64,000 nucleotides of DNA from Rhizophagus irregularis (taxonomy: Eukaryota > Glomeromycota > Glomeromycetes > Glomerales > Glomeraceae). A program made the translations under genes and the position numbers. Where the stretch lies: positions 4,960,001 through 5,024,000 of the forward strand of contig NC_089432.1 of the NCBI RefSeq assembly GCF_026210795.1, given 5' to 3'. Shown here piece by piece: positions 2,371 through 60,896 of this stretch (positions are counted from its first letter, which is position 1; the number at the start of each line of letters is the position of its first letter). Below the pieces are notes generated by a model. It ran no database searches, was not told where the DNA came from, and saw nothing but the letters and a program-made list of their open reading frames with translations.

Positions 2371-4681
2371 CTATGAAATTATTGAACTTTTTTGAAGTAC
2401 TTTTAATCTATTTTGTGCTTTTTGATATCCTTGTTTAGCAGATTTTTTATACCAATAAACCGCTTTATCTATATCTTTTTTAATTCCTCTTCCATATTCA
2501 TACATAATACCAAGATTATATGGTGCTACTTTATTACCTAAATCTGCAGATTTTTGAAATAATTCAAATGCTTTTTGATTATTAACGTTAGTACCAATAC
2601 CACAAATATAACAAAACCCTAACATTGTTATTCCATCTAAATCTCCTCCTTTAGCTGATTTCTCAAATAATTTAAAAGATTTATTATAATCTTTTTCAAC
2701 ACCTACTCCATCTTTATAACAAATACCTAAATTATATATAGCTATTATATTTTCATTATTTGCAGCTTTTTCATACCAATAAAAAGCCATTTTTAAATCT
2801 TTTTTAATACCTATTCCATCTTCATAACAACAACCAAGAAATATTTGTCCTGCAGTATAATCTTTATTAGCAACTTTTACAAAATATTCAAAAGCTAATT
2901 TTTCATTTTTTAAAGTTCCACGTCCATATAAATAACAAATACCAACATAATATTGAGCCAAAATTTGATTTTTTTTTGATGCATTAATGAATAAATTGAA
3001 TGCTTTCTCATGATTTTCATTTGTTTCAATTCCAAGATAATTAAAATATCCAAATAAAAATAAAGAATTTGAATTATTTTGATTACTGGTATTATTATTA
3101 TTTGATAATAACCAATTATAAATTTCTTTTGAATTGATATTATGATTATTAAAAAAGCTAATGGTTTGTTGTTTTACTAATTTTGATACAATTCCTTTAT
3201 TTAATAATTTAAAAATAAAATCATTAATTTCAGTAACTAGTCCATTATAAACTTTTTCAGATGATGATTTTATATTATTAATTTCTTTTGAATCTATATT
3301 ATCAAAATTTTCCATAAGTTCAGATAATTCTCCATGTGGACCTGGATTATTATTACTGCTTAAAGGAACCTCATTAAGTTCTTGTTTGCCTGATGATTGT
3401 TGATCTTCTATTATTGCATCAATTTTTGTAACGATCGCTTTCAACCAATCAACAACTTGAAATATGGTAGGACGATTATCTGGCTCACCATCCCAACATT
3501 CTGAAAAAATAATTTAAGATTAACTTTTACTAAATATAAATAATTAAATTTCAAAATTTTTACTTACTAGTATAAATATTTATATAATTTTCAGATGTTT
3601 CAGGAACAATAGATTCTCTAAGACCTTGACTAATTTCTAAAGCCAAACCAACATCATATTGTTCACCTTCATTATAGAAAGGAGGTTGACCACTAGACAA
3701 TTCCCATAATAATACGCCAATACTATAAATATCACTTTTTTCATTTAATGAATACATTGGCATTTTTTGATTATTATGACTATTTCTTCGAGTGTTAAAA
3801 CATTTTGGGTCAACATAAGGAACCATTCCAAATAATTTAGATTGAAAATTGGATGATGCTCCAATTCTTTTTGATAATCCAAAATCTGCTAATTTGATTG
3901 TTTTTTGATGAACTAATATATTATTGGAATGCTATTTAATTAAAAAAAAAATTAAATGAGATGAATAAATGAAAAATAATATAGTTAATAACTAAATAAT
4001 CATTATAAATGATTTTATAAATTACTGTACCAAATCACGATGAACAATCCCCTCATTATGTAAGCATGATACGGCGCAAGCTAATTGGTACGCCATATTA
4101 TATCTGTCATCCCAAGTAAGGTTATTATAATTATTTTTTAAATAGCTTCGAAGATTACCACTATCTGCATACTCCATTACTAACCAATAATTTTGTAGGT
4201 GCTTATTTTGATTTTCTAATAAAAGAATTACATAATTTTGTAAATAGAGATTTTTAATAATTTAACGTTAATTATTACAAGATATCTTTATAATACCTAG
4301 CTCATATTTTGTTATTCCATAGCAACGAATGATATTATCATGAAAATCGACTTTACGTTGAATTTTTAACTAAATAAATATAAATTTTTATGAATAAAAT
4401 GAAAAGTCATAAAATGGATTAAAAAATTTAATTACCTCACGAACAATTTCTTTAACAGTGACATTATTAAGATTAAAAAAAGATTTTAATGCAAAACATT
4501 TTTCTAGGTTTTTCAAATTTGCACGATACACTTTTCCGAAACCTCCAGTACCAATTTCTTGAAAGTTTCTAAAATCGTTATATTCGTAATAATTTAAGAG
4601 TTCTTTATCAATAGCTTCTTCAATCCATTTAATCCATTCATTTGTATTCTCAGTATTATGCATTTTAATGTTATCAAACAT
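2371..4681 (-). CDS. Protein kinase (TKL-like) with C-terminal Sel1 repeats, copy 1
   Basis: Five exons, complement of join(2371..3500, 3568..3931, 4031..4215, 4297..4369, 4436..4681), giving 665 aa. All junctions are GT-AG and phases close. The kinase domain (about residues 38-305) has the glycine loop GTGGFGKV, the ALK lysine, HRDLHSNN, and ADFGLSKR followed by VPYVDPK in the APE region, so it should be an active Ser/Thr or dual-specificity kinase. A linker of about 110 residues leads to five Sel1-like repeats (about 425-655; motif A-x-Y-x-LG..Y..G.G..KD..KA..WY.KAA), which usually form a solenoid for protein binding. It is the only minus-strand member of the array. The start is set by homology of [16 protein letters not shown] to the MSDNKQ start of the other copies. 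No signal peptide or membrane segment, so probably cytosolic. Substrate unknown. Confidence 0.9.
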
Positions 4682-4775: not shown

Positions 4776-7472
4776 TTATGCAAGATCTTCTTTGGATTAT
4801 AGTCACACTGTGTCACCAGTATCACCAACAGAAACAGTTGTCAGTCGGGACGATATATCAGCCGGTAAATTTTTTCTCAGAAAAAAATTATCACGTGATT
4901 ATCATCTGCATGTGTAGCCATGAACCCCTTCACTGGTTGAAAAGACGAAGATTTAACTAGCCGGTTAAAGAGTTGAAATGCATTAAAAAAGGAAAAGTCA
5001 AATTCTGAGACAATGGGAAAATAGATTATGTAAGCATGACAAAGCAATGATCTGCATCCAAAAAAAGGAAACCCGATGAGAACAAAATTTTATCGTTTAA
5101 CGTATTTGTTTCGTACGCTTCGTAGTGCTAAATATAGTTCCGAGACCAAACATATTAAAGGACATTTTATAATTTTTTTCATTTTTTTCATTTTTTTTAA
5201 AAAAAAATAGAATCTTAAAAAAAATTAGATTTTGAATTGCCATAGAATTACGACACATAACAATTTGATTAGTAAATTCATATTGCTAAATAAATTATTT
5301 AAAAATGGTATATTTTTTGTAATATGTAAAGTATAATTATAAGATAAAAAAATTGGTCATTCTATTATAATTATCATAATAAAAAATTGATTTAAATAAA
5401 TATGTTAATCATTATATATTGAAATGTTTGGAGGATACATACTGTAATTGAACGAGAAAGTTTAATACCTTTCATTACAGGTTTTATAAAATAACAATTT
5501 TGTTTCTACATTGTTAACGAGATATTTAATATTTTCAATTGCAGAAATTTTGCTTACAATGATAATTTTATTATTCCTGAAAATATAAATAATTATAAAT
5601 TTACATAAATTAAATAAATGGTTATCGTTATTGTAGCAAAATAATCAGAAGGTGATGATAGGCCAAATATGGGAACGATAAAAGTTTAAATAAATATAAT
5701 AAACCACTCAACCAATTAGGTTCCCTACCTTTTTTGCCAAACCTAGGGATTGAAAAGGAAAAATAATGATTATCGCCAGCAGGTTATTTCCTCATAGCTA
5801 AGAACGATTTTGAAATATTTTTTTTTCAGTCTTATCACTTGTAAAACATGTAAAGCGTTATTTTCTATTTCTTTGTCAACCGGCTCGTTCACCAAGTATT
5901 TCTTGGTTTTACAAAATTCCTTTCCACCAAGAAATACTGTATATAATATTTTATTGCGGGGACAAATAGCTTATTTTAACTATGTCACGTTCTCGTTCTT
6001 AAATTTCTCGTTATGAGTTTATCCGTTGAACGCAGTAATCCTTATGAATGACACTCTTATCACATGATTTAAGGTGATAATGGTTATTACGTATATTGTT
6101 ATTCGTCCATTTTTACTACATTTAAGCTTAAGGATCGCTTCACACACGCAGTCATTTCGATTTAAGTATTTTAGCTGGTAAAGTAATATCCATAAAAAAA
6201 TATCTGATGAGAAATAGAGTAGCAAGAGCAAGGGTAAAATTATTTACTTTTATTACATTCACATATGCGTACCGTATAGTAGTTATCGTTATGGCTTGAC
6301 GTTAATATATAATCCCGATTTACTGAATTCTACTATAAAAATCCTTTGGAATATTATTAATTTTTTTTCATACATTGAAACAATGACTTAATTAATAGCA
6401 AGGACAGGGATAAATATTAAAACATTTAGTCGTCATTTATTTTATTTTACCTTATTTTTTTTTGTATTAGTTATGTGAAAACCTTAATCTTGGCAAAAAC
6501 AACAGGTGATTTCATCGAAAAAAAAAATAATTCATTACTAAAAAAAAAATTAAAAAATTTAATACATATTAAACCAAAATATTCATGTTAAAAGTTTAAA
6601 AGTTTCAATAATAAAAGCTGCCATAGAATCTAATGATTTAGAAGAATATAGAAAGATTACTGAAGAATATGGTCAATTTACATACCTAAAAGAAGATGTA
6701 AAAAAAGGAACTGAAGAGAAGACCTAAAGAAATATCGGGTGAAGATATAACGGTGATCTGCTCATTATGTTGGCAAAAATCATATTATACTCAACGTAAA
6801 AATACAATATAAACATGAGCTCCATGTAAAATTTATGCCGTATAACCTACCAATGATACAAGTAACTCTTTGAACAATATTAACTCCAGACTTAATAACG
6901 GTTTCACGTTCTCTAGCCTAATTAATTTCATTTGCAAATTTATTATTTTTTTTAAAATGATTTTTTTGGTAATTATTATTTTTTTCTTTTTTTGTAATAT
7001 TACATACAATATACCTAAAATATACTTGAAGGCGATATTTTAATTTCCTCGTGCAAATAAATGATCGACAGAGTCCAGCTTATACAAAACTGCCTTATAT
7101 ATTGTACTATACCTACAAGATCTGGTTGATCAATATAATAATTGGTCAATATAAATAATCGGATTTTTTTATTGTGATAAACTTTTGGCACAGCGTACAG
7201 TATTGCGGCTAACTCCGAGCAATAAACAATAATCCGAGTTTGTATACCCTTCCTTTTTTGGATAATGCATTATGTTAATTATGATTCTGGAGAGATGCGT
7301 AGAAACGATCTCTTGTTACCTATTTATATATTACGCAGATATTAGTGGCGTTGTACAACTATTATTATAGAACAGAATTGCATAAATAGGCTTTTTTTTT
7401 CGTTATCGTACAAAATATAACTTTTACAATTTAATCCTATCGTTTATAAAATTTTTCTTATTATTATTCATT
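4776..7472. other. gene-free region between divergent kinase copies 1 and 2
   Basis: About 2.7 kb of AT-rich sequence. Short frames (for example 5810-6016 and 6019-6231) show no family resemblance or codon pattern. Around 6604-6725 a plus-strand stretch reads as KAAIESNDLEEYRKITEEYG followed by QFTYLKEDVKKG before a stop, which looks like a scrap of a real coding exon of unidentified family. No other feature seen. Confidence 0.45.
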
Positions 7473-9017
7473 ATGTCTAATAATACAACAATACAAGATA
7501 CCGAAAATACAAATGAATCGAACGCTTGGATTGAAGAAGTTATTGATAAAGATCACTTAAATTATTACGATTACAACCAATTTAGTAACATTCAAGAAAT
7601 TGGTTCCGGAGATTTTGGAAAAGTGTACCGTGCAAATTTGAAAAATTTAGAAAAATTTTTTACGTTAAAATCTTTTTTTAATCTTGACAATATCACTATG
7701 AAAGAGATTGTTCGTGAGGTAATTAATATTAAATATATATATTTTTTTTACAATCCATGATTTTTATTGTTTTTTAAAAATTTAAAATTTAAAATTTATT
7801 TAGTTAAAAATTCAGCATGAAGTTGGTTTTCATGATAATATCATTCGTTACCATGGAATATCAAAATTTGAATCAGGTATTATAAATTACTTTAAAAAGT
7901 GTAATATTCTAAGTTTTATTTATAAAATCTCATTTCAATAACTGTTTTTTTTCTTAGAAGATAATGAACATCATATTAATTATATCCTGGTAATGGAATA
8001 CGCAGACAGTGGTAGCCTTCGAAACTATTTGAAGAATAATTTCGGTAAGCTTACTTGGAATGATAAGCATCATATGGCTTATCAGTTAGCTTGCGCTGTA
8101 TCATGCCTACATAATAAGGGAATTTCCCATTGTGACTTGGTAAACATATTTATTATAATGATAACGTTTATATTTTTATTTATTTATTAAAATATTTGTT
8201 TTTTTTAATAGCATTCTGGCAACATATTAGTTCATCAAAATATGATCAAATTGGATTTTGGGTTATCGAAAAGAATTGGAGCATCAATTAATTTTCAATC
8301 CAAAGAGATGATTCCTTATGTTGATCCAAAAATCTATAATAATAACAATAACCAAATAACACAAATGTTAACATTAAATGAAAAGAGTGATATTTACAGT
8401 ATTGGTGTGTTACTATGGGAAATTTCTAGTGGGTTACCTCCTTTTTATGCTAAAGATAATCAATATGATGTTAATTTAACTTTGGAGATTGCACAAGGTC
8501 TTAGAGAAGAAGTTGCTTTTGACACACCTGAAGATTACATAAAAATTTATACTAGTAAGTTTTAATTAATTTAATTATAATTTAATTATTACTTAACTAA
8601 TTTTGAATTATTTTTTCTTTTTAGAATGTTGGGGTGAACCAGATAATCGTCCTACTATATATCAAGTAGTTGATTGGTTAAAAGCAATTATTACAAAATC
8701 AAAATTAAAAGATTCTCAATTCTCAAACAATCAAAAATTTAATTCAAAATCAAAAGAAGAATTATTTCAATTTATCAAAAATTTTGATAAAATAAATATA
8801 AAAGAAATTGATCCTATAACAATAACAAATAAAAGAGAGAAACTTTTATTTGAAAAAGGTTATGATATAATAGTTGATGAAATAAATGATTATTTAATTA
8901 AATTAGCAAATAAAGGAATTGAATGGATATTATTAAGACAAGAAGTTATTAAATATTTTAATAATCATAATATAAATTTAAAAGAAATTTATAATTGGTT
9001 ATTAAATAATCAAGATG

Positions 9018-9049
<32 letters not shown>

Positions 9050-9739
9050 TCAAATATAATTTTTTTATTTGGATATTTTATATTTTTTGAAATTGAAACA
9101 AAACTTAATATTGAAAAAGCATTTAATTTATTTTTAATTGCATCAAAAAAGAATCATATATTTTCACAATATTTAGTTGGAAGTTGTTATAAATATGGTA
9201 ATGGTACTATAAAAAATGAAAAATTAGCTTTTGAATATTTTGAAAAATTGGCTAATAAAAATTTTACTTATGGTCAAGTTGAAATTGGTTTTATTTATAA
9301 AAATGGTATAGGTGTTAAAAAAAATTCAAAAAAAGCTTTTTATTGGTATGAAAAAGCTGCAAATAATGGTAATTTAACAGCTTTAAATACTCTTGGTCTT
9401 TATTATAAAAATGGTATTGAAGTTGAAAAAAATTATATTAAAGCTTTTGAATTATTTAAAAAATCTGCTAAAGATGTTTATCCAAATGGTTTAAATTCTT
9501 TAGGTTGTTGTTATGAATTAGGTATTGGAACTAATATTAATATGAAAAAAGCATTTGAATTATATCAAAAATCTGCAAATTTGGGTGATAAGGGTGCTCA
9601 ATATAATCTTGCTATGATGTATGAAAATGGAAAAGGTATTTTAAAAGATATAGATAAAGCTATTTATTGGTATGAAAAATCTGCTAAACAAGGTGATCAA
9701 GATGCACAATATGAATTGGATAAACTTAAAAATCAATAA
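7473..9739 (+). CDS. Kinase-like protein with Sel1 repeats, copy 2, altered catalytic core
   Basis: Five exons, join(7473..7718, 7804..7876, 7958..8139, 8212..8554, 8625..9739), 652 aa, frames and splice sites intact. The glycine loop is GSGDFGKV and the lysine is kept in TLK. The catalytic-loop arginine is replaced (HCDL in place of HRDL), one codon is missing just before DFG (KLDFG against KLADFG in its sisters), the activation segment is two codons shorter (SKEMIPYVDP against [12 protein letters not shown]), and [10 protein letters not shown] has lost its D. Every change is in frame, so the reading frame is being kept while catalysis may be weakened or redirected. Five clear Sel1 repeats follow (about residues 430-645), preceded by an asparagine run near 9017-9050. 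Sequence is more diverged from copies 3-7 than those are from each other. Likely a pseudokinase or low-activity kinase scaffold; that reading is inference. Confidence 0.85.
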
Positions 9740-16437: not shown

Positions 16438-18754
16438 ATGTCTGATAATAAACAAATGAAAAATACAGAAAATACAAATGAATGGATTAACTGGATTGAA
16501 GAAGCTGTTGATAAAGAACATTTAAATTATTATCAATACAACCAATTTACTAACATTCAAGAAATTGGTACCGGAGGTTTCGGAAAAGTGTACCGTGCAA
16601 ATTGGAAAAATACAAAAAAACAATTAGCGTTAAAATCTTTTTTTAATCTTAATCACGTCACCATGAAAGAAATCGTTAGTGAGGTAATTTTATATAATAC
16701 ATTTTTTTTTTTTTACAATATTTTATTTTATCTAGCCTATATTATATTTATTTTTAATATTTGAATTTATTTAGTTAAAAATTCAACGTAAAGTTGATTT
16801 TCATAATAATATAATTCGCTGCTGTGGGATAACAAAATTTGAATCAGGTATTAATGAGATACTTTAATAAATAAAATATTCCAAATTTTATTCATAGAAT
16901 TACATCTCATTAATTATTTCTTTTTTTTTAGAAAATCAAATTAGCAATAATTATATGTTGGTAATGGAATACGCCGACGGTGGTAGTCTTTGAAACTATT
17001 TGGAAAAAAACTTTAGTAAGCTCACATGGGACGATAAATTAAATATGGCGTACCAATTAGCTTACGCTGTATCATGCTTGCATAATGAAGGAATCATCCA
17101 TCGTGACTTGGTAATTTACAAATCATTTATAATAATTTAGTTATAATAATATTATATTTCATTATTTATCTCATTTGCTTTTTCTAATTAATAGCATTCT
17201 GGCAATATATTAGTTCATCAAAACACGATCAAATTGGCAGATTTTGGGTTATCAAAAAGAATTGGAGAATCATCCAATTTCCAATCCAAATTATTTGGGA
17301 TGGTTCCATATGTTGATCCGAAAAGCTTTAACAAACGAAGAAATAATAATAATCAAATGTTTTCATTAAACGAAAAAAGTGATGTTTACAGTCTTGGCGT
17401 ATTATTATGGGAAATATCTAGTGGGAAACCTCCTTTTTATACTGAAGGTGAACAATATGATGTCAGTTTAATTTTGGATATTTCACAAGGTCATAGAGAA
17501 ACGGTTATTCCTGATACGCCCGATGATTATGTAGAAATTTATACTAGTAAGTAAAATTAATTTAAGTTTAACTAGAGTATTATTTTAATTAATCTGAAAA
17601 TTATATTTTTATTTGTTTTAGAATGTTGGGATGGTGAGCCTGATAATCGTCCTATCATATATCAAGTAGTTGATTTGTTAAAAGCAATGATTACAAAAAC
17701 AGATATAATAACGGAAAATCCTCAATTATCAAATGAACAAGAATTTAATGAGGTCTCCATAAGTACCAATAAATCGGAATCACAAGGAGATTTATCTTAA
17801 TTTATTCATTATTTTAATAAAATGAATACAAAAGAAATTGAAGATATCATGGCTGTACCAAATGAGCAAGAGAAACTTTCAGCTAAAAAAGTTTTTAACA
17901 GAGTAGTTGATGAAACAAATGATCTAATTTTTAAATTAGCAAATAAAGGAATTGAATGGAAATTAATAAAAAAGGAAGTTATTGAATATTTTAATAATTA
18001 TAATACAAATTCACAAGAAATTTATAATTGGTTATCAAATAATCAAAATAATTCAAATTCAATTTTTTTACTTGGATATTTTAATTATTTTGAAATTGAG
18101 ACAAGTGAAAATAATGAGAAAGCATTTAAATTATTTATTAATGCATCAGAAAAAAATCATATATTAGCACAATTTTTTGTTGGTGAATGTTATAAAAATG
18201 GAAATGGAACTATAAAAAATGAAAAATTAACTTTGGAATATTTTGAAAAAGTGGCTGATAGAAATTATGCAATTGGACAATTAGAAGCTGGTTATTTTTA
18301 TAAAAATGGAATAGGTATTAAAAAAGATTTAAAAAAGGCTTTTTATTGGTATAAAAAAGCTGCAAATAATGGAAATATAATAGCCATGCATAATTTAGGT
18401 AATTGTTATTTACATGGAGAGGGTGCTGAAAAAGATTATAATAAAGCTTTTGAATTGTTCAAGAAATCAGCTGAAGAAAATTATTTTCGTGGAATAACAA
18501 TGTTAGGATATTGTTATGAAAGAGGTATTGGAACTAAAATTGATAAGCAAAAAGCATTTGAATCATATCAAAAATCGGCAAATTTAGGAAGTTTAGTAGC
18601 ACAATATAATGTTGGTATTATGTATGAAAGTGGAAAAGGAATTACAAAAGATATAAATAAAGCGATTTATTGGTATGAACAATCTGCCAAACAAGGATAT
18701 CAAGATGCACAAAATAAATTAGAAATACTTCAAAAAAAAATCAATAATTTATAA
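16438..18754 (+). pseudogene. Kinase-Sel1 copy 3 with two nonsense codons
   Basis: Exons by homology: join(16438..16683, 16775..16847, 16932..17110, 17195..17546, 17622..18754), splice sites and phases all intact, nominal 660 codons. Two stops interrupt it: TGA at 16991-16993 where copies 4, 5 and 7 read CGA (SLRNY), and TAA at 17798-17800 where copies 4, 5 and 7 read CAA (LSQLIQNF). Both fit C-to-T changes. Everything else is conserved: [27 protein letters not shown], and five Sel1 repeats. The first stop removes the C-lobe of the kinase and all Sel1 repeats. With the retroposon in its promoter this copy is probably dead, although read-through or editing cannot be excluded by sequence alone. 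Confidence 0.85.
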
Positions 18755-20425: not shown

Positions 20426-22691
20426 ATGTCCGATAATAAGCAAATGAAAAATACCGAAAATACAAATGAATGGATTAATTGGATCGAAGAAGCTATTGAT
20501 AAAGAACATTTGAATCATTATGAATATAACCAATTTACTAACATTCAAGAAATTGGTGCCGGAGGTTTCGGGAAAGTGTACCGCGCAAATTGGAAAAATA
20601 CAAAAAAACAATTAGCGTTAAAAACTTTTTTTAATCTTAATTATGTCACCATGAAAGAAATTGTTCGTGAGGTAATTTACTGTATATATAATATAAGATG
20701 TTTTTTAGCCTATATTATTATATTTTAATATTTGAATTTATGTTAGTTAAAAATTCAACGTAAAGTTGATTTCCACGATAATATTATTCGTAGCCATGGA
20801 ATAACAAAATTTGAATCAGGTATCATAAAGAGATTTTAATAAGTATTATATCTAAATTTTATTCACAAAATTTCATTCCAATTTTTTTTTTCAGACAACA
20901 AAATTGGTAATAATAATTATATAATGGTAATTGAATACGCTAACGGTGGTAGTCTTCGAAATTATTTGGAAAAAAACTTTAGTAGGCTTACATGGGACGA
21001 TAAATTAAATATGGCGTACCAATTAGCTTATGCTGTATCATGCTTGCATAATGAAGGAATCATCCATCGTGACTTGGTAATTTATTTATTATTAATTAAC
21101 CATTGTTCGTAATACTGTATTTGTATTTATTTATTTAATGTATTGTTTTAATAGCATTCCGGCAATATATTAGTTCATCAAAACATGATCAAATTGGCGG
21201 ATTTTGGGTTATCGAAAAGAATTGGAGAATCATCCAATTTCCAATCTAAATTATTCGGGATGGTTCCCTATGTTGATCCTAAAAGCTTTAACAAACGAAG
21301 AAATAATAATAGCCAAATATTTTCATTAAATGAAAAAAGCGATGTTTACAGTCTTGGCGTATTATTATGGGAATTATCTAGTGGGAAACCTCCTTTTTAT
21401 ACTGAAGGTGAACAATATGATGTTAGTTTAATTTTGGAAATTTCACAAGGTCTTAGAGAAACAGTTGTTCCTGACACGCCCGAAGAATATGTAAAAATTT
21501 ATACTAGTAAGTAAAATCTTAAATTTGTTATAATTTAAATATTGTTTAATTAATTATATTTGTGCTTTAGAATGTTGGGAGGGTGAGCCAGATAATCGTC
21601 CCACTACATATCAAGTAGTTGATTTGTTAAAAGCAATGATTACAAAAACAGATATAATTACGGAAAATCCTCCACTATTAAACGAGCAAGAATTTAGCGA
21701 GATTCATTTAAATACCAATAATTTGGAATCACAAGGAGAATTATCCCAACTTATTCAAAATTTCGATAAAATGAACACAAAAGAAATTGATAATAGAGCA
21801 GTATCAAATAAGCAAGTAAAACTTCCAACTGAAAAAGATTTTAACAGAATAGTTGATGAAACAAATGATTTAATTTTTAAGTTATATAATAAAGAAATTG
21901 AATGGTATTTAGTAAAAGAGCAAGTTATTGAATATTTTAATAAATATAATACAAATTCACAAGAAATTTATAATTGGTTATCAAATAATCAAAATAATTC
22001 AATTTCAATTTTTTTACTTGGATATTTTAATTATCTTGGAATTAAGACAAGCCGAAATTATGAGAAAGCATTTAAATTATTTATTAATGCATCAGAAAAA
22101 TATCATATATTAGCACAATCTTTTGTTGGTGAATGTTATCGATATGGACATGGAACTAAAAAAAATGAAAAATTAGCTTTTGAATATTATAAAAAAGTGG
22201 CTAATATTAATTTCACACGTGGACAACTTAGAATTGGTTATTGTTATGAAAATGGAATGGGTACTGAAAAAGATTTAAAAAAGGCTTCTTATTGGTATGA
22301 AAAAGCTGCAAATAATGGAAATATAATAGCAATGCATAATTTAGGTGGATATTATTTAAGGGGAGATGGTGTTGAAAAAGATTATAAGAAAGCTTTTGAA
22401 TTGTTTAAGCAATCAGCCGAAGGAGGACATTCAGGTGGAATTGTAATGTTAGGATATTGTTATGAAAAGGGTGTTGGAACTAAAATTGATAAGCAAAAAG
22501 CATTTTATTTATGTCAAAAATCAGCAGATTTAGGTTATGTGTCAGCACAATATAATCTTGGTGCTATGTATGAAAATGGAAATGGAATTACAAAAGATAT
22601 AAATAAAGCGATTTATTGGTATGAAAAATCTGCCAAACAAGGATATCAAAAAGCACGAAATAGATTAGAAATACTTCAAAAAAATAAATAA
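20426..22691 (+). CDS. Protein kinase (TKL-like) with Sel1 repeats, copy 4
   Basis: join(20426..20671, 20747..20819, 20895..21076, 21155..21506, 21571..22691), 657 aa. Glycine loop GAGGFGKV at 44-51, ATP lysine at 66 (LALK), HRDLHSGN at about 164-171, LADFGLSKR near 181-189, VPYVDPK further on, and [16 protein letters not shown] closing the kinase at about residue 300. A polar linker rich in N, Q and E follows, then five Sel1 repeats from about 425 to 650, ending [20 protein letters not shown]. All key catalytic residues are present. Its 3' flank was split by a mariner-type element 17 bp after the stop. Probable cytosolic signalling kinase; partner bound by the Sel1 solenoid unknown. Confidence 0.92.
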
Positions 22692-29568: not shown

Positions 29569-32044
29569 ATGTCTGATAATAAACAAATACAAAATAGTGA
29601 AAATACAAATGAATGGATTAATTGGATTGAAGAAGCTATTGATAAAGAACATTTAAATTATTATGAATATAACCAATTTACTGACATTCAAGAAATTGGT
29701 GCTGGAGGTTTTGGAAGAGTGTACCGTGCAAATTGGAAAAATACCAAAAAACAATTAGCGTTAAAATCTTTTTTTAATCTTAATAATATCACCATGAAAG
29801 AAATTGTTTGTGAGGTAATTAATTATATAATACATTTTTTTTTTACAATATTTTTTTTTATCCAGCATATATTATATTTATTTTTAATATTTGAATTTAT
29901 TTAGTTAAAAATTCAACGTAAAGTTGATTTTCATGATAATATAATTCGTTGCTGTGGAATAACAAAATTTGAATCAGGTATTAATAAGAAAGATACTTTA
30001 ATAAATAAAATATTCCAAATTTTATTCATAAAATTACATTTCATTAATTGTTTCCTTTTTTTTTTAGAAAATCAAATTAGCAATAATTATATGTTGGTAA
30101 TGGAATACGCCGACGGTGGTAGTCTTCGAAACTATTTGAAAAAAAACTTTAGTAAACTCACTTGGGACGACAAATTCAATATGGCGTACCAATTAGCTTA
30201 CGCTGTATCATGCTTGCATAATGAAGGGATCATCCATCGTGACTTGGTAAATTTATTTATTATTATTTAATCATTGCTCGTAACACTATAGTATTTGCAT
30301 TTACTCATTTAATATATGTTTTTTAATAGCATTCTGGCAATATATTAGTTCATCAAAACACGATCAAATTGGCAGATTTTGGACTATCAAAAAGAATCGG
30401 AGCTTCATCCAATTTTCAATCCAAATTATTTGGAATGGTTCCTTATGTTGATCCTAAAAGCTTTAGCAGACGAAGTAATAATAATAACCAAATGTATACA
30501 TTAAATGAAAAAAGTGATGTTTACAGTGTTGGCGTATTATTATGGGAAGTATCAAGCGGACGACCTCCTTTTTATGCTGAAGGTGAAGAATATGATGTTA
30601 GTTTAATTTTGGAAATTTCACAAGGTCTTAGAGAAACGGTTGTCCCTGATACACCTGATGAATATGTAAAAATTTATACTAGTAAGTAAAATTTTAAATT
30701 TATTTTAACTTAAATATTTTCTAATTAATAAATTATATTTGTGTTTTAGAATGTTGGGATGGTGAACCTGATAATCGTCCTACCATATATCAAGTAGTTG
30801 ATTTACTAAAAGCAATAATTACAAAAACAGATATAATAATGGAAAATCATCAATTATTGAATGAAAAAGAACTGAATGAGGTTCCTTTAAGTACCAATAA
30901 TTCAGAATCACGAGGAGAATTATCCCAACTTATTCAAAATTTTAATGAAATGAATACAAAAGAAATAGATAATATAATAATGGAAAATCCCCAATTATTG
31001 AATGAGCAAGAACTTAATGAGGTTCCTTTAAGTACCAATAATTCAGAATCACGAGGAGAATTATCCCAACTTATTCAAAATTTTAATGAAATGAATACAA
31101 AAGAAATTGATAATATAGCAGTAGTAAATGAACAAGAGAAATTTTCAACTGAAAAAGATGTTAACAGAATAGTTGGTGAAACAAATGATTTAATTTTTAA
31201 ACTATATAATAAAGGAATTGAATGGAAATTAATAAAAGAGCAAGTTATTGAATATTTTCATAATTATAATACAAATTCACAAGAAATTTATAATTGGTTA
31301 TCAAATAATCAAAATAATTCAAATTCAATTTTTTTACTTGGATATTTTAATTATTTTGGAATTGAGATAAATAAAAATAATGAGAAAGCATTTAAATTAT
31401 TTATTAATGCATCAGAAAAAGATCATATATTAGCACAATTTTTTGTTGGTGAATGTTATTTTTATGGACATGGAACTATAAAAAATGAAAAATTAGCTTT
31501 TGAATATTGTGAAAAAGTGGCTGATAGAAATTATGCAACTGGACAATTAGAAGCTGGTTATAGTTATGAAAATGGAATAGGCATTGAAAAAGATTTAAAA
31601 AAGGCTTTTTATTGGTATGAAAAAGCTGCAAATAATGGAAATATAATAGCTAAGCATAATCTTGGTGATTGTTACTTAAATGGAAATGGTGTTAAAAAAG
31701 ATCATAATAAAGCTTTTGAATTGTTCAAGCAATCAGCTAATGGAGGATATTCAAGTGGAATCTTAATGTTAGGATATTGTTATGAAGAAGGTATTGGAAC
31801 TAAAATTGATATGCAAAAAGCATTTGAGTTATATCAAAAATCAGCAAATTTAGGAAATGAGATAGCACAATATAATATTGGTACTATGTATGAAAATGGA
31901 AATGGAATTACAAAAAATAAAGATAAAGCGATTTATTGGTATGAAAAATCTGCCAAACGAGGATATCAAGATGCACAAAATAGATTAAAAATACTACAAA
32001 AAGAATCAACAATTCATAAAATAAAATCTTTATTTTTTAAATGA
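29569..32044 (+). CDS. Protein kinase (TKL-like) with Sel1 repeats, copy 5, duplicated linker
   Basis: join(29569..29814, 29905..29977, 30068..30246, 30330..30681, 30750..32044), 714 aa, the longest of the family here. Kinase motifs are complete: GAGGFGRV (the usual lysine after the last glycine is arginine), [38 protein letters not shown]. The extra length comes from an exact-frame 47-codon tandem duplication in the linker between kinase and Sel1 repeats ([20 protein letters not shown] appears twice). Five Sel1 repeats follow and the protein ends in a basic tail. The reading frame is clean, so the duplication is tolerated. Likely functional. Confidence 0.92.
30839..31120 (+). repeat. 141-bp in-frame tandem duplication in exon 5 of copy 5
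   Basis: Copies at 30839-30979 and 30980-31120 differ at only a few positions. Copies 4 and 7 have a single version of this segment, so the duplication arose in copy 5 recently. Confidence 0.9.
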
Positions 32045-54395: not shown

Positions 54396-54992
54396 CAGTG
54401 TTCGGCAAATGACTTGAAATGAACAAATGACTCAAATGACAAGTCATTTGTCATTTGTCATTTGCAACTCAAATGACCTGTCATTTGAGTCATTTGAAAA
54501 ATATTAAATATTCTGAGAATTTTTACTAATTATTTTGTTTATTTTAATTAAGAAAACAAAAATATTAAAACAAAATTGGTTTAATATATATAATCAAAAA
54601 AGTTCCAATAGTAGCTAGGGGATAGGTAAATAAACGGGGGGGCCAACTCAAGGTTACACAGGCTGATCAGTGATCGGACAGAACTGAAGCCTTATAAAAC
54701 TGGTTACACAAGCGAAGCCTCGATATTAAAAATTTAGTTTTTTTAGTTTTTCTCGCCACATATACATAGAAAAGCAGCCGATCTCAAAAACTAAGACCAT
54801 TTATGCTAGCTCTAAATAAACGAATTGTTTTTATCAAAATCGAACCACTGTAGCTTTGCAAGGGTTACTTTTTTTCTTGTTAATTTATAAAAACATATTG
54901 AAAAGTTATCATTTTATCGTTTCATGCTTTTATTGCGTGAATTTTGGCTTTAACAAGTACTTTATTCTGTAAATTTTGGCTTCGCTATATTA

Positions 54993-56486
54993 CTATTCTA
55001 CAAAAATTTGTCCTTTTGATATGGCTTCATTGGAGAAGGGAGTTTCTTTTTTAAGGTGATCCAAAATTAAAAATATTAAACTTTTTTTTTTCTTGTACCT
55101 TGCTTTGTCCCCAAAGGCCCAAAGTAACCACTGTAACTCACTTACTAAAAACATTTTTGAAAATTCTTCTTCAGCGCCATCCAATTTTGCCCAGATTTGA
55201 AGCTGTACTAATGCAAGAATAGGATCCTTTGGAACGTTAGATTTTTTCATCAATGTATGTGTATTTTTAGTTTTGGAGGTTTTGGATGAATTTTGAATAT
55301 CATTTCGCATGGCTTTCAGGTTTTCTCTAAGACTTGAGGTGCCTTTCTCAGGAATGAGATCATTGAATTTTCGCCAAGACTTTTGCCTACTCTTCATATA
55401 GATAGAAATAATTCGTTCGTAAAGAAAATTTTTAGCGTCATCTTTTAATTCCTGTTTTTCAGGTTCATGTATAGAGAGCATTTGACTGGAAATATTAAGA
55501 AGTGCGTTAAAAGCTCCTAACAATAGTGAGTTGCACATTAAACTATTATTTATATAATGCAGAATATTGGGACCAAGTTCTTTGTGCTTTTCAAATAACA
55601 ATATTATTAATGACTCCATTTTGTACATGAATTTTAAAAAATCTTGGCCTGGAACTACATTTGTCGTCTGTGATCGAACATCTTTTTCATAGACAACTTG
55701 TTCTGAGCTTAGAATCATGAGGTGAGCACGAATGATATCAAATTTGGGATGTGATCTTATTATTTTATCACTTTTTGTTAATTTATATATAACCCATCCA
55801 ATGATGTAAGAAAACTTTAATGCTTCAGCTGGTTCTAAAACAAGAATTTTTTCAGGTTCCAGATAAGAATCAGCCAAAAAATGAGTGTGTATACTATTTG
55901 GTGTTGTTTTCTTACTAAAAGTGAGTTTGATTACATTTTGTAAAAGTAAGTATGCAATAAGCCTTTGAGTTGGAGAATCATTTAAATTAGTTATAGAAAG
56001 AAAGTCTTGATACCAAATCCCTGAACATTGATAATTATTAAGATAAATTTCAAGGTGAGAACTCCAACTGGCTAACCATTGAATTCCTGTTTTTTTTGGA
56101 ATAGCTTCACTCGCCATTTTTTTAATAATGTCTTGCCATTTATGTAGTAATTTATCAATAGAATCCTGGTAAAGTATAGTTTCTATAAGATTACATCGTT
56201 CCTTTTGAAAGAAAGCAATTCTAACATTTTCTTGATTAACGTGTTCATCATGTGATTCTAACGGAATCTCAATTCTCCCCATAATCAAATTGTCTGCGAG
56301 AAGGTTTTTAAAGACATTACTAGAAAGAGATGATAATTGTGCCAAACGGATAAAGTGCTTCTGATCGGTAATATTTTCATCATTTTTTACTGAAATTTTT
56401 TTATCTTTTCGATAGTCTCTAATTGTTAAATAATATTTTAGATAATATTTGTATGAATAGGGACAATGGCGTACAAGTAAGGACAT
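54993..56486 (-). CDS. 497-aa companion ORF of the P-like transposon, unknown function
   Basis: Uninterrupted from MSLLVRHCPYSYKYYLKYYL to FSNEAISKGQIFVE. Largely helical, with no recognised domain. Notable parts: WQDIIKKMASEAIPKKTGIQ, EPAEALKFSYIIGWVIYKLT (possibly buried helix rather than membrane), and KEFNDLI-like basic segment RQKSWRKFNDLIPEKGTSSL. It begins 13 bp past the last transposase frame on the same strand and lies inside the TIRs. It could be the transposase C-terminal region continued through an intron, or a separate protein. The EPAEALKFSYIIGWVIYKLTKSD segment resembles the end region of P/THAP9-type proteins (..Y.aGyi..kl), which favours the first. Unlike the transposase frames it has no stop. 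Confidence 0.65.
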   Translation of the reverse strand: MSLLVRHCPYSYKYYLKYYLTIRDYRKDKKISVKNDENITDQKHFIRLAQLSSLSSNVFKNLLADNLIMGRIEIPLESHDEHVNQENVRIAFFQKERCNLIETILYQDSIDKLLHKWQDIIKKMASEAIPKKTGIQWLASWSSHLEIYLNNYQCSGIWYQDFLSITNLNDSPTQRLIAYLLLQNVIKLTFSKKTTPNSIHTHFLADSYLEPEKILVLEPAEALKFSYIIGWVIYKLTKSDKIIRSHPKFDIIRAHLMILSSEQVVYEKDVRSQTTNVVPGQDFLKFMYKMESLIILLFEKHKELGPNILHYINNSLMCNSLLLGAFNALLNISSQMLSIHEPEKQELKDDAKNFLYERIISIYMKSRQKSWRKFNDLIPEKGTSSLRENLKAMRNDIQNSSKTSKTKNTHTLMKKSNVPKDPILALVQLQIWAKLDGAEEEFSKMFLVSELQWLLWAFGDKARYKKKKSLIFLILDHLKKETPFSNEAISKGQIFVE

Positions 56487-56499
56487 TTGTTAAATAAAA

Positions 56500-59400
56500 T
56501 TATAATATATACCTTCTTTCTAATGTAGTAATGCCAGCTCTAGTACTATCAGCTTTTCCATAATTAATACTTTTTACTTCAGATGAAACTAATGCTGTCA
56601 CTTGATATTTATTTAGAGCATGTCCATAAGATTTGAGAGTATGTGTTGAGGAGTCCCCACCAAGTTCACGAATATTACCAAAAAGCCCTTCAAGCATATC
56701 TTGTGAAATGCGTCTTGGTTGAATCATTGAACCTGGATACTTTTTCAAAAAATAGTTAATCATTCCAAGAAATCCATTAATAGATAAAATCAAATCAAAT
56801 TGGCATTGTGATGAAATCCATTCTTTAGGATCTTTTTTTTGTTTATTACCATCTACAAACCAATTATATATTTCTTTTAAAGTATTAATACGTGGATCTT
56901 CTAAAGATTGAAAACTGATTTTACTATGCATAATTTGACGATATTTTCGTGAATATTTACTAAATTCCTATAAAAAAAGTAAATATTTTAAAAATTATAA
57001 AATTATATTAATTGTAATAATTATTTTGTACTTACTCTTGTTCCTTCTGAGATTTTTTTAAGTTCATCAATAGATGCCAATGCATCTTCAACTTCTTTTG
57101 ATATAGTATGTTCTGCAAGATCAACACGCATCTTGCTCCATGAAGTTAACCATATATGACGTTTTGTAAGTTTTGTAGCTTGAGCTGTTGCATGTTTAAT
57201 TGTATGATCATATACGCCTTTTATGTGCTTCCAACTAATCTCCTTTCCATTAAACATTATTTCTCTGGAATTTTTTTCATCTATATGGCTTTTTGATAAG
57301 TTATTTCTTAATTTCTTAAATACATGTGTAGGATCACTAATAAAGAACCAATCTTCTCCAGTAATAGGATTTATTGTTTTATAATTTGTTGAAAGTCATT
57401 CAATATCATGAACAGGTCGAAGAAATTCACTAATATGATGATTAAAAACTTGCCATTCTTCAATAGGTTTATTTTTTGATCCAGGAATTTCTACAGTAAA
57501 TATTGATGTAATAGAATCAAAATTTGTAATTTTTCCTAAATACCATTGATTATCTTTTGGATTTTTAAATTCACAAAATTCATTAATATTCCATTCTGAT
57601 TTTAAAGGTGTTTGTGGACGAATAAAAGCTCGATCAATTGTAATTTTTGTAAAACTATCCCAATCAAGCTGACGTACAGTAAACTTTGTCTTTTCAAAAT
57701 TGCTATCTACAATTTCTGCTACATGATAAGATTTTTTGTCTTTTCTGAAATTAACTTCTACAAGATCACCAGATGACCACTTTGATGCATACCAATCAAA
57801 CCTTTTGATATGGTTTCTATTTTCACCTGCTCCATCACAAATTGAACCAATTGTATGTATACCTATACATTCTAATTTTGCTGCAAGACTAAAAATCAAT
57901 GTGTTTAAGTTATGTGCTGTCATATTATTAATGCCATAATATGATATAGGAAAAGAAAAATTATGAGTTATTGAATGCCAAACAAATTGGTGAACTTGAG
58001 TTGCAAGTTTGCGATCCTGTTTTTCAGATATAGAATTAGATAGGGAATTCTTTTCTTTTAATATTTCATGTTGACATTGTATGGCAAATTCTTGATATTC
58101 TTGCATTTCATTTTCAAAATCCAAATAGCCGACATAACAATTTTCACGTTGACTCCAAAGAAGACCTATAATTTCAAATAATTTATTTCAAAGTTAGTTA
58201 TATGTATTTGTTTAAAAACAGTTAAAAATAAATAAATAACCTTTTTGAATTTTAAATTAATCATGTGAAAAAAACCCTATTCGTCCATATCCCCAAACTT
58301 TATTTGTTGTTAAACTTGCTAACATTTGATGAGCAATTTTGTCTTGCCATCCCGAACATTGTTCATTTTCATTTATGTAACTTTTAAGTGTGGAGATTGA
58401 TGGTAAATGCATAATTGTTTTCATTGCATTATAAGCCGCATATCCAGATTTACTATATACAGATATAGCCCAGCGCAAAAACCTGCAATAAAGAAATATT
58501 AAATTTTTTTTTTGCAAATGAATTACCATTATTTGTTTTACTTACATTGGATGATATCTTGTTCCATTCAGCTTTTTTGCTTGAATGTGAATAAGTTCTT
58601 GAAAAATAGGATGCAAGTTTGAAATATCTACATTTTTGCTAGCAATATTTTCAGAAACAGTATGAACAACATTTGCAATTTTAGTTGACACTTGTATTTC
58701 TTCTTTTTCTATTTTTTCTTGCAATCGTTCTTTTATATTTGAGATTGTTTAATTTTCAATTTAATAATTTTTCGTTGTTCATTAACTTTTTCTGCAAGAA
58801 CATCTTTAGATGCATGTATGACTTTCATAGAATTTATGCCAGCCAAATATCTTCGACGAATTTGCTGCATTGTTTTTTGTAATTTTTTACAATTCTTACA
58901 CATATCATTATTATTTTCTGCCACAAGTATGCAGTCTATACGTCAGTATGCTTCACCTGGTTGACCTTGTTTTTCCAAAAAAGCAAAAGGAACGTGCTCT
59001 TTATTGCTAGTTTGTGCATTATTAATAAGCTGAGTTCCTCGAATGTATACTACATCACTAAAACCTTAAATTTCAAAATATTTGTTTAAAAAAATATATA
59101 TACATATATAAAATTATATAGTAATAACTTTTAAATTACCATTAGTGTTTTGTCCATAACAAATTCTAAGAGAAAAAATATATTGTGTAAGGATTTTTAT
59201 TTCGTCAAGAGATCTTTTCATTGGTTTGGCAGGAAAAGGAAGATGTGCTTCTTGTAATATTTTATCAAAAACACAAACTTCATATCCAAGTAAAACACCT
59301 TTAGCTATAATTATCATTTTCTTCTCTAATTGTCCCTCTCTTCCAAAAAAATGAAACTCAAGACCATCAGTAATTTTTTGTACTATAGTTCCCAAAAATA

Positions 59401-59842
59401 TTCCCTCTAGAAAAATCTTTTTTTGAATTAACGAAAAAATTTCCTCAAGACTTGTATACGTAGATGTTTTCCAGTATGAAGAATAATTTGATTCACCAAG
59501 AATTGATGCAATTGATGGGCTATTAGGATTTGGTTCCAAAAAAATAGTTGCAAAAGCTGACCTATGTCCTTTAAATAATCTTAAATTTTTTAGTGCAGTT
59601 ATCCATTTAGAGAAAGTATCATACTTTCGATCATTCTTAACACTGTATATATAAGCTTTTTTTTCCTTTGCGTCAAACATTATCACGCCCTCAAAGTATT
59701 TATCCAATGCCGGGAAAAAATAAACGGTTTTTCCTTTGAGATCAGGCCTGATATGCACAAGTTCTTGCAGTGTTTCTATCTTTTTTTGCTTTTTTACTGG
59801 TGGGGAATCACTGGTACCCTTAAAAGATCGTTTTTCTTGATT
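56500..59842 (-). pseudogene. P-superfamily transposase with Tudor/Agenet-like insert, broken
   Basis: Minus-strand exons by reading and GT-AG signals. Order: charged N-terminal region (59842-59128), a CKNCKKLQ...QQIRRRY coiled segment (58924-58733), the HTH-proximal RWAISVYSKSGYAAYNAM and LPSISTLKSYI, the catalytic part with FFSHD (first Asp), HQFVWHSITHNFSFPISYY and CDGAGENRNHIKRF (second Asp), then an insert with two Tudor/Agenet-like units (DLVEVNFRKDKKSYHVAEIV; NEFCEFKNPKDNQWYLGKIT), then FFISDPTHVFKKLRNNLSKS and QDMLEGLFGNIRELGG (likely catalytic Glu). These motifs are those of P-element/THAP9 transposases. Damage seen: TGA in EAY*RIDC near 58943, a frameshift near 58738, TAA after FFSHD near 58257, TGA after PVHDIE near 57396. 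No THAP zinc finger was found. Confidence 0.8.
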
Positions 59843-60896
59843 CTGTTAGTCATAGAAATATAAAAATATTACAATTTATTTCAAAAAAAAATAGTAACAG
59901 CGTTAGTTTCTTTTTGCAATTCACCATTTCTCCAAGTTATCTCTAATATTTGTCTAATTAAAAGGTATCTAGTTCACCGATCCAGTTTTTTTAAAGAACT
60001 AAAAGACGAACTGCAATAAAATTTATACTGGAGATAGTCACGCGTTACATCGTTTTCGGGGTGGTTTTTTTTTGAATAATCATTAATTGGTATTCGTGGC
60101 TTTTACTTAAGTAAAGTAGCGTTTTACAAAGATTATCATATAATTTTATATGTTTTTCATATGAGGCTTCAGTTCTGTCCAATCACTGATCAGCCTGTGT
60201 AACCTTGAGTTGGCCCCCCCGTTTATTTACCTATCCCTTAGATAGTAGTAAAGATTTTTTAATCACGTGATTTTGTTATTATTTTACAGGTTATTATTTG
60301 TTAATAATATTATTATAGACAGGATTATTTCACTTATAATTATTTCACTAATGATCATTTTATCCACACAGATAAAAGTTAATTGATTTTGCAATAAAAT
60401 ATTTAATTGTAACACATGTAGTGGATCCCATTTTTCACCATTTTTATATATAATTGTTGTCTTTATTTAATCATAAGATGGCCATAATATTTATTTATGC
60501 ATATAATTATATAATAAAATTATATATAATAAATAACATATCAGATATTATCACTTTAATAATTATGGTTGTGTTATTTATTATTTTCAGATTACAGTAA
60601 AAAATAAATAATTTGGTGAAATTGATTCTGTTTGTGATTATTTCGATTACGTCCTTCCTTTTTTGTACATCACGTGATTATGAATTGTCCAATAATCTTT
60701 AAATATTTTAATGACAAATGACCAAATGACAAAGGACGCAAATGACAGTCAAATGATACCCAATCATTTGGCATTTGTCATTTCGCGAATAATTCAAATG
60801 CCAAATGCCAAATGATGGGGTGTCATTTGACCAAATGACTCCTAATCCGAAAAATGGTCAAATGACCAGGTCATTTCCGAACACTGTGACGTGTGC

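Follow-up and report, generated by a model that had tools for sequence, protein, structure and literature searches.

The DNA analysed here, hereafter the window, is a 64,000-nucleotide stretch of the Rhizophagus irregularis genome (contig NC_089432.1, positions 4,960,001 to 5,024,000; 28% GC). Its minus strand carries a P-superfamily cut-and-paste transposon (54615-60241), which is delimited by the ends of its terminal inverted repeats (TIRs) and by a perfect 7-bp target-site duplication. The transposase appears to be encoded by one gene of about seven exons, and there is very little doubt that a tandem Agenet/Tudor module has been added inside its P-type catalytic fold. An initial annotation of the window had recognized a P-type transposase, and this identity is borne out by Pfam matches to the RNase H and GTP-binding domains, by the D-D-E motifs, by the TIRs and by the duplication. 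The motifs which it had named, FFSHD, CDGAGENR, ISDPTHVFKKLRNNL, and QDMLEGLFGNIR, are all present on the minus strand, and the TIR pair that it had claimed was recovered as an inverted repeat (89% over 104 nt).

The genome searched comprises 146.7 Mb in 32 contigs. Among the catalytic exons collected from the family, all 19 match TNP-like_RNaseH_N (PF21787), with an E value of 2.1e-11 for the window copy. The TNP-like_GBD domain (PF21788) was matched in nine of the 19 (best E value 1.8e-11), several members ending before the domain, and at 25 places genome-wide, each of which is above the cut-off. The SDPTH motif, which marks the start of the GTP-binding domain, is found in the exons measured. 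The GTP-binding domain is thus retained, and GTP binding is predicted. For RNaseH_C (PF21789), a relative from another source, L062, scores 23.9 bits against a cut-off of 24 and the window copy has an E value of 0.0034, and the QDMLEGLFG motif is present. Sequence searches of solved structures with the catalytic exon returned 0 matches.

The insert consists of two units of about 60 amino acids each, together about 126 residues (57405-57782), and is therefore narrower than the span of 57400-57940 that had been assigned to it. It is predicted to fold as two SH3-like barrels. In an AlphaFold model of the exon from relative L011 (alignment A1, 19 sequences), the mean predicted local distance difference test (pLDDT) score is 49.5 overall, and residues 132-257, with block means mostly of 70-87 (lowest 65 and 67), are the sole confidently modelled part. 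They form two successive barrels with four main strands each. In a Foldseek comparison with the PDB, the top four matches are the tandem Agenets of NtAGDP3, AtAGDP1, and ADCP1 (E value 1.1e-6 to 1.5e-6; probability 1.00), at 14-19% sequence identity, so that the Agenet/Tudor resemblance noticed in the initial annotation is upheld by structure prediction. Of the 78 matches with an E value of 0.001 or better, the best 50 comprise 45 rows for Agenet proteins, FMRP/FXR2, SGF29, UHRF1 or SETDB1, three for ZGPAT, and two for complexes with uninformative titles. Pfam Agenet was matched in four of the 19 whole exons (best E value 1.1e-4) and, when the insert was searched alone, in six of 14 sequences (best E value 1.1e-5), with TUDOR matched in five of the 14 (best E value 4.8e-4). 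The two units also resemble each other (hhalign E value 4e-5; probability 70).

From the second catalytic Asp to the D(2)H motif there are 160-166 residues in all ten copies measured as well as in L062; about 17 of these residues lie ahead of the insert, about 126 constitute it, and about 21 follow it. The corresponding interval in Drosophila P, from the second Asp (D303) to D339 at the start of the GTP-binding domain, is 36 residues (PMC8230255), and the greater length found here is owed to the tandem Agenet module. The [C/D](2)H motif is described as always following beta5 (PMC8230255). Because the insert precedes the D(2)H motif with about 21 residues between them, it lies upstream of beta5, most likely between beta4 and beta5, and the GTP-binding domain comes after it at the normal position. 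The module had been located after the second catalytic Asp, which is correct, and exactly where the GTP-binding insertion begins, which is not, since it sits upstream of D(2)H. Of the suggestion that the module had been either added or swapped in, only the addition holds: each of the 25 PF21788 matches is closely preceded by an insert match, and replacement of the GTP-binding domain was rejected for that reason.

Searches with PF21787 and PF21788, both of which are independent of the insert, placed an insert match within 400 bp upstream of all 25 GTP-binding domain matches genome-wide and directly downstream of 23 of the 24 RNase H matches. The one RNase H match that lacks it, C17:4441781, belongs to a decayed fragment ending close to the boundary of the insert. 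No insert-free P-type element was found in the same genome with PF21787, PF21788 or the exon containing the Glu motif. Some matches to the Glu motif, e.g., C10:5188223, have no insert, RNase H or GTP-binding domain match nearby, and these look truncated. At the C17 locus (L081, 1-2501), the roughly 2.1 kb that follow the fragment have no match to the element.

At least 69 genomic matches contain element DNA, at least 33 contain the insert, and at least 68 contain the 497-aa ORF considered below; these figures come from the best candidates scored and count pieces, fragments included, rather than copies. The 13 full or nearly full copies have the same modules in the same order, with the sole exception of L057, in which the N-terminal exon was unmatched. 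A tree of 20 catalytic exons separates them into two groups of 11 and 9 rows (support 100/100), with the window copy in one group and L062 within the other, and the insert is carried by both clades as well as by L062. The latter is a 4.2-kb contig (1-4222) that is filed under a soil Bacteroidetes genome bin. Its long open frames correspond to the insert-bearing catalytic exon, the Glu-motif exon, and the C-terminal exon, and parts of the upstream exons are present too. The 31% GC and the introns that split its transposase suggest that this is a eukaryotic scaffold, probably fungal, filed in the wrong bin. L062 was the one relative found among prokaryote contigs, in a scan that employed peptide patterns from the insert and its left border and is blind to insert-free relatives, so that the insert of L062 does not independently argue for their absence. 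Viral contigs yielded no relatives, either with the insert and border patterns of the catalytic exon or with the C-terminal exon, the latter scan being able to detect insert-free relatives. A search for a host donor of the Agenet module gave one weak match elsewhere (E value 0.042), although it was insensitive enough to miss the transposon's own inserts.

The initial annotation had asked whether the insert is conserved under selection. Pooled ratios of nonsynonymous to synonymous differences (pN/pS) are 0.22 for the N-terminal part of RNase H, 0.42 for unit 1 (p 1e-7), 0.32 for unit 2 (p 5e-12), and 0.15 for the GTP-binding domain. The pool comprised five pairs drawn from 10 of the 15 aligned sequences (L062-L028, L026-L027, L029-L030, L011-L012, and L017-L023), which were chosen for spread and are not strictly independent, so that the p values are rough. 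As judged from these alignments, the module is under purifying selection, less tight than that on the neighbouring domains.

We lean towards a reading that joins this architecture to a function on chromatin. The DDE site and the GTP-binding domain would cut and join DNA, as in P, while the tandem Agenet module would supply a docking surface on chromatin. By analogy with tandem Agenet/Tudor readers, the likeliest ligand would be a methylated histone tail, and docking would guide the transposase to, or license it on, particular chromatin. Because a histone-reader-like domain pair has been kept under selection, the transposase may sense chromatin state. The histone-docking step, taken by itself, is much less secure than the architecture.

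Several points weigh against this reading, beginning with the fold. The Agenet bit scores of two members are below the curated cut-off of 27 (25.0 for L011 and 18.3 for L062), and the insert profile meets solved Tudor domains at E values of 0.22 and 0.92 amid unrelated chains. The window copy lacks a Pfam Agenet match and has just one to PTM_DIR17_Tudor, at 0.055. Confidence is low for the catalytic part of the AlphaFold model, and it is the spacing of motifs that places the insert between beta4 and beta5. The module also evolves at two to three times the rate of the GTP-binding domain, and four ratios for a single pair and a single unit exceed 1 among 23 pairs: L012-L017 (1.10), L017-L023 (2.19, a pair that is part of the pool), and L017-L020 (2.28) in unit 1, and L009-L011 (1.11) in unit 2. 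Values of this kind are what a functionless neutral passenger, gained once, might be expected to leave, as is the contrast of 0.32-0.42 in the module with 0.15-0.22 in its neighbours. We nevertheless consider a passenger improbable, as pN in the pool falls far below pS for unit 1 and unit 2 alike, 26 of the 134 columns in the alignment of 14 insert sequences are invariant, and two clades, as well as a relative from another source, retain the module.

The putative binding site is a further point on the adverse side. In AGDP1 the aromatic cage is formed by Tyr122, Trp127, and Phe144 (PMC6208443). Unit 2 has an invariant Phe and Trp, a Tyr or His beside the Trp, and an Ile at the third aromatic position, while unit 1 has Phe/Tyr and Leu at cage positions; this mapping was made by eye on the 14-sequence alignment, partly via an Agenet motif. 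A three-aromatic cage of the AGDP1 type is therefore matched only in part: two aromatic positions are plausible, and the third residue looks replaced by Ile or Leu. Because the cage residues fit only in part, binding of other ligands in the manner of FMRP is a serious rival. The tandem module would then be real but would bind DNA, RNA or another protein, or would assemble the transposase or hold the target DNA, and tandem domains of the FMRP/FXR type may bind such non-histone ligands. We regard this as a substantial possibility. The FXR2 tandem Tudor has the highest target-normalised template modelling score (0.74) among the best 50 of the 78 Foldseek matches, mapping revealed no complete canonical cage, and a module lodged in the catalytic fold beside the GTP-binding domain would be well placed for a structural role or for handling DNA. 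Against it, the four top-ranking structures are all tandem Agenets of H3K9me2 readers, and descriptions of the P and THAP9 transposases include no module of this kind (PMC7776569, PMC8230255).

A more specific form of the chromatin-docking reading would have mark reading coupled to target capture or catalysis, thereby directing copies into silenced, repeat-rich chromatin, where they would do little harm. This is tentative, and we think it less likely than not. For eight of the 11 duplication-bearing copies of the window copy's clade (the window copy and seven others), a multicopy repeat provides a paralogous site that is empty; of the remaining three, L057 has a partial match, and L052 and L056 have none among the best 40 places scored. 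This count is compatible with a bias towards repeats but does not show one, being made without a random-site control and where insertions in repeats survive better. About 50% of the R. irregularis genome is repetitive (PMC11075540), and because of this eight of 11 is not significant and does not show targeting. tRNA-targeted integration was also considered and was rejected, with 0 tRNA at all 13 copy loci.

The initial annotation had further proposed that a 497-aa ORF within the same TIR pair encodes a companion protein, separate from the transposase. The ORF is indeed open from ATG to stop in the window, as a transposon of two genes would have it. At the junction of exons 6 and 7, however, a GT donor and an AG acceptor occur at the same place in all 13 aligned copies and connect the exon of the Glu motif with one whose start, DYR, is conserved; the exon ends at the junction are conserved, while the intron sequence between them is poorly conserved among copies. 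The frame is continuous across the junction, e.g., LERR-DYRK (window copy) and LSRC-DYRR (L060), and is disturbed solely in L051, by a 4-nt insertion ahead of the donor. About the first 22 codons of the ORF fall inside this weakly conserved intron in the window copy. The remaining ~474 residues correspond to the last exon, which is conserved in 10 aligned copies, three of them cut short, and which in L054 occupies 4833-6254 (about 474 aa). The ORF is thus best read, with an intron placed by alignment, as the C-terminal exon of the transposase itself, and a separate companion gene, scarcely credible in view of the intron, conserved in position, that links the Glu-motif exon with the body of the ORF, was rejected. 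The domain that it encodes has no Pfam match better than 0.053.

The predicted organization of the gene and the coordinates of the other features are listed in Table 1. Most copies of the window group share an aligned ATG with a GT intron after it, beyond which several of them read SKRK..., and the protein probably starts MSKRK.... The helix-turn-helix (HTH)-like region of exon 4 was recognized by eye and has no Pfam match. The window copy is broken by in-frame stops within coding exons, one of which is common to it and to a 98%-identical twin on contig C23. Because its own gene is broken and the stop is shared with the twin, the window copy was probably mobilized in trans by the transposase of another copy.

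Table 1. Features of the P-superfamily transposon and its insertion site (window coordinates)
Feature	Position	Strand	Remarks
Whole P-superfamily transposon	54615..60241	-	5' end at 60241; TIR ends and 7-bp duplication
5' terminal inverted repeat	60160..60241	-	begins CTAAGGGATAGG
3' terminal inverted repeat	54615..54696	+	CTAGGGGATAGG in inward direction
Target-site duplication ATAGTAG, one side	54608..54614	.	7 bp, perfect
Target-site duplication ATAGTAG, other side	60242..60248	.	7 bp, perfect
Exon 1, start codon only, GT intron after (predicted)	59925..59927	-	from upstream alignment of copies
Exon 2, N-terminal domain, no THAP match	59147..59842	-	3' boundary approximate
Exon 3, Cys-containing and coiled-coil-like region	58546..59064	-	by eye; disrupted in window copy; splice-signal boundaries
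Exon 4, HTH-like region and first catalytic Asp	58241..58482	-	FFSHD, codon 58260-58262; splice-signal boundaries
Exon 5, RNase H N half, tandem Agenet insert, and GTP-binding domain start	57036..58165	-	second Asp codon 57834-57836; D(2)H motif Asp codon 57333-57335; splice-signal boundaries
Agenet/Tudor-like unit 1	57606..57782	-	AlphaFold and Foldseek on relative L011; Pfam Agenet best 1.1e-5 among 14 relatives
Agenet/Tudor-like unit 2	57405..57605	-	AlphaFold and Foldseek on relative L011
Exon 6, remaining GTP-binding domain and RNase H C part	56513..56967	-	Glu in QDMLEGLFG, codon 56689-56691
Exon 7, C-terminal domain (predicted)	54993..56418	-	497-aa ORF is 54993-56486, of which 56419-56486 is intron
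Repeat hosting the transposon	54396..60886	.	about 857 bp when empty; empty copies elsewhere in genome

The N-terminal domain occupies the place of THAP in the animal relatives and is conserved, with 40% identity between the two clades. In the eight N-terminal exons scanned, all eight were without a match to THAP or to any other Pfam family better than 0.18. Its model has a mean pLDDT of 58.4 and gave no fold match at an E value of 0.001 and no PDB-sequence match. Nothing was found in support of a likeness to RAMA-type domains. The missing THAP match is to be expected, because THAP domains are described as confined to animals (PMC7776569).

The termini of the element open with CTA(A/G)GGGATAGG. 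The comparison of target-site duplications took in 14 copies, from which C5 and the C23 twin were excluded, their 3' ends not having been located. Perfect 7-bp duplications flank 11 of the 12 copies of the window copy's clade with both ends located, the exception being C1:2.69M, in which four of seven positions match. For C7 and C31 a single end was examined and was not recognized; for C22:3.68M one end was examined. The duplications of the 11 copies share the motif NTANTAY. Their common T-A-N-T-A core matches at 35 of 44 positions (binomial p 5e-9), a figure equalled by 0 of 200,000 random sets drawn from the window, with the core positions picked after the data were seen. In the other clade, by-eye comparison revealed perfect 7-bp duplications in both of two copies (L059 and L061). 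The ends of L058 were not found, and L060 provided one end only. The duplications of L059 and L061, both ATATTAT, are outside of the 11-copy motif count and fit the motif too.

The insertion in the window interrupts a repeat. When its two flanks are joined, they match four other places in the genome at 100% over 412 nt, and against three empty copies the left flank is 98.6-99.1% and the right flank 99.7-99.8% identical. Because the flanks are near-identical to empty copies elsewhere, the insertion is real, and it would also be recent. The 857-bp host repeat contains CAAATGAC-rich palindromes.

The element shares with Drosophila P and THAP9 the D-D-E RNase H fold, a [C/D](2)H motif after the second Asp, the GTP-binding insertion, TIRs, and short duplications (PMC7776569, PMC8230255). 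It differs from them in having no THAP match and a long C-terminal exon without a Pfam match, and in duplications of 7 bp rather than the 8 bp of Drosophila P (PMC7776569). Among Drosophila members of the P superfamily, which include Galileo and 1360, Galileo likewise has duplications mostly of 7 bp, with a TA-N-TA core (GTANTAC, compared with NTANTAY here), but it possesses a THAP domain, and no Agenet insert is reported in its description (PMC4168063). The plant H3K9me2 readers AGDP1, ADCP1, and AGDP3 are the best structural matches of the insert, from which they differ in the low identity given above and in a Tyr122-Trp127-Phe144 cage that the insert matches incompletely (PMC6208443). A P-type RNase H domain is able to carry a second large insertion besides the GTP-binding domain, as this family shows.

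Chromatin readers on mobile elements are known mainly as end add-ons of retrotransposon integrases. A chromodomain histone reader on a Gypsy integrase reportedly directs integration to heterochromatin (Gao et al. 2008). Such chromodomain-bearing Gypsy elements, the chromoviruses, are an analogue in how the present module would work, although the enzyme, the domain, and its position are unrelated. A closer parallel in the domain captured is Gypsy-10_Ec32 of Ectocarpus, a mobile element with a Tudor-type reader which, to the knowledge of its authors in 2025, was the first transposable element reported with a Tudor domain (PMC12477816). That element is a retrotransposon with a single C-terminal Tudor, whereas the element described here is a DNA transposon with a tandem module in the catalytic domain. 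A P profile was part of the screen in the curation of R. irregularis transposons, the main text of which contains no mention of a P element, the P superfamily, Tudor, Agenet or THAP (PMC11075540), and in an earlier R. irregularis transposon paper 'P-element' occurs only in the expansion of PIWI (PMC8647823). No description of a P element with an Agenet/Tudor insert was found in the open-licence literature. The case is of interest because a DNA transposase has a tandem reader-like module within its catalytic domain and because two diverged clades have kept it. If the module does read histone marks, chromatin choice by a cut-and-paste element would become directly testable, the module being compact and deletable.

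Other parts of the window contain ORFs that were named by eye. Five, at 2371-3444, 8603-9739, 17822-18754, 21624-22691, and 30839-32044, are Sel1-repeat-like and mutually similar, and kinase-like ORFs are also present. The end of a further ORF, at 265-933, resembles the C terminus of a hAT-type transposase.

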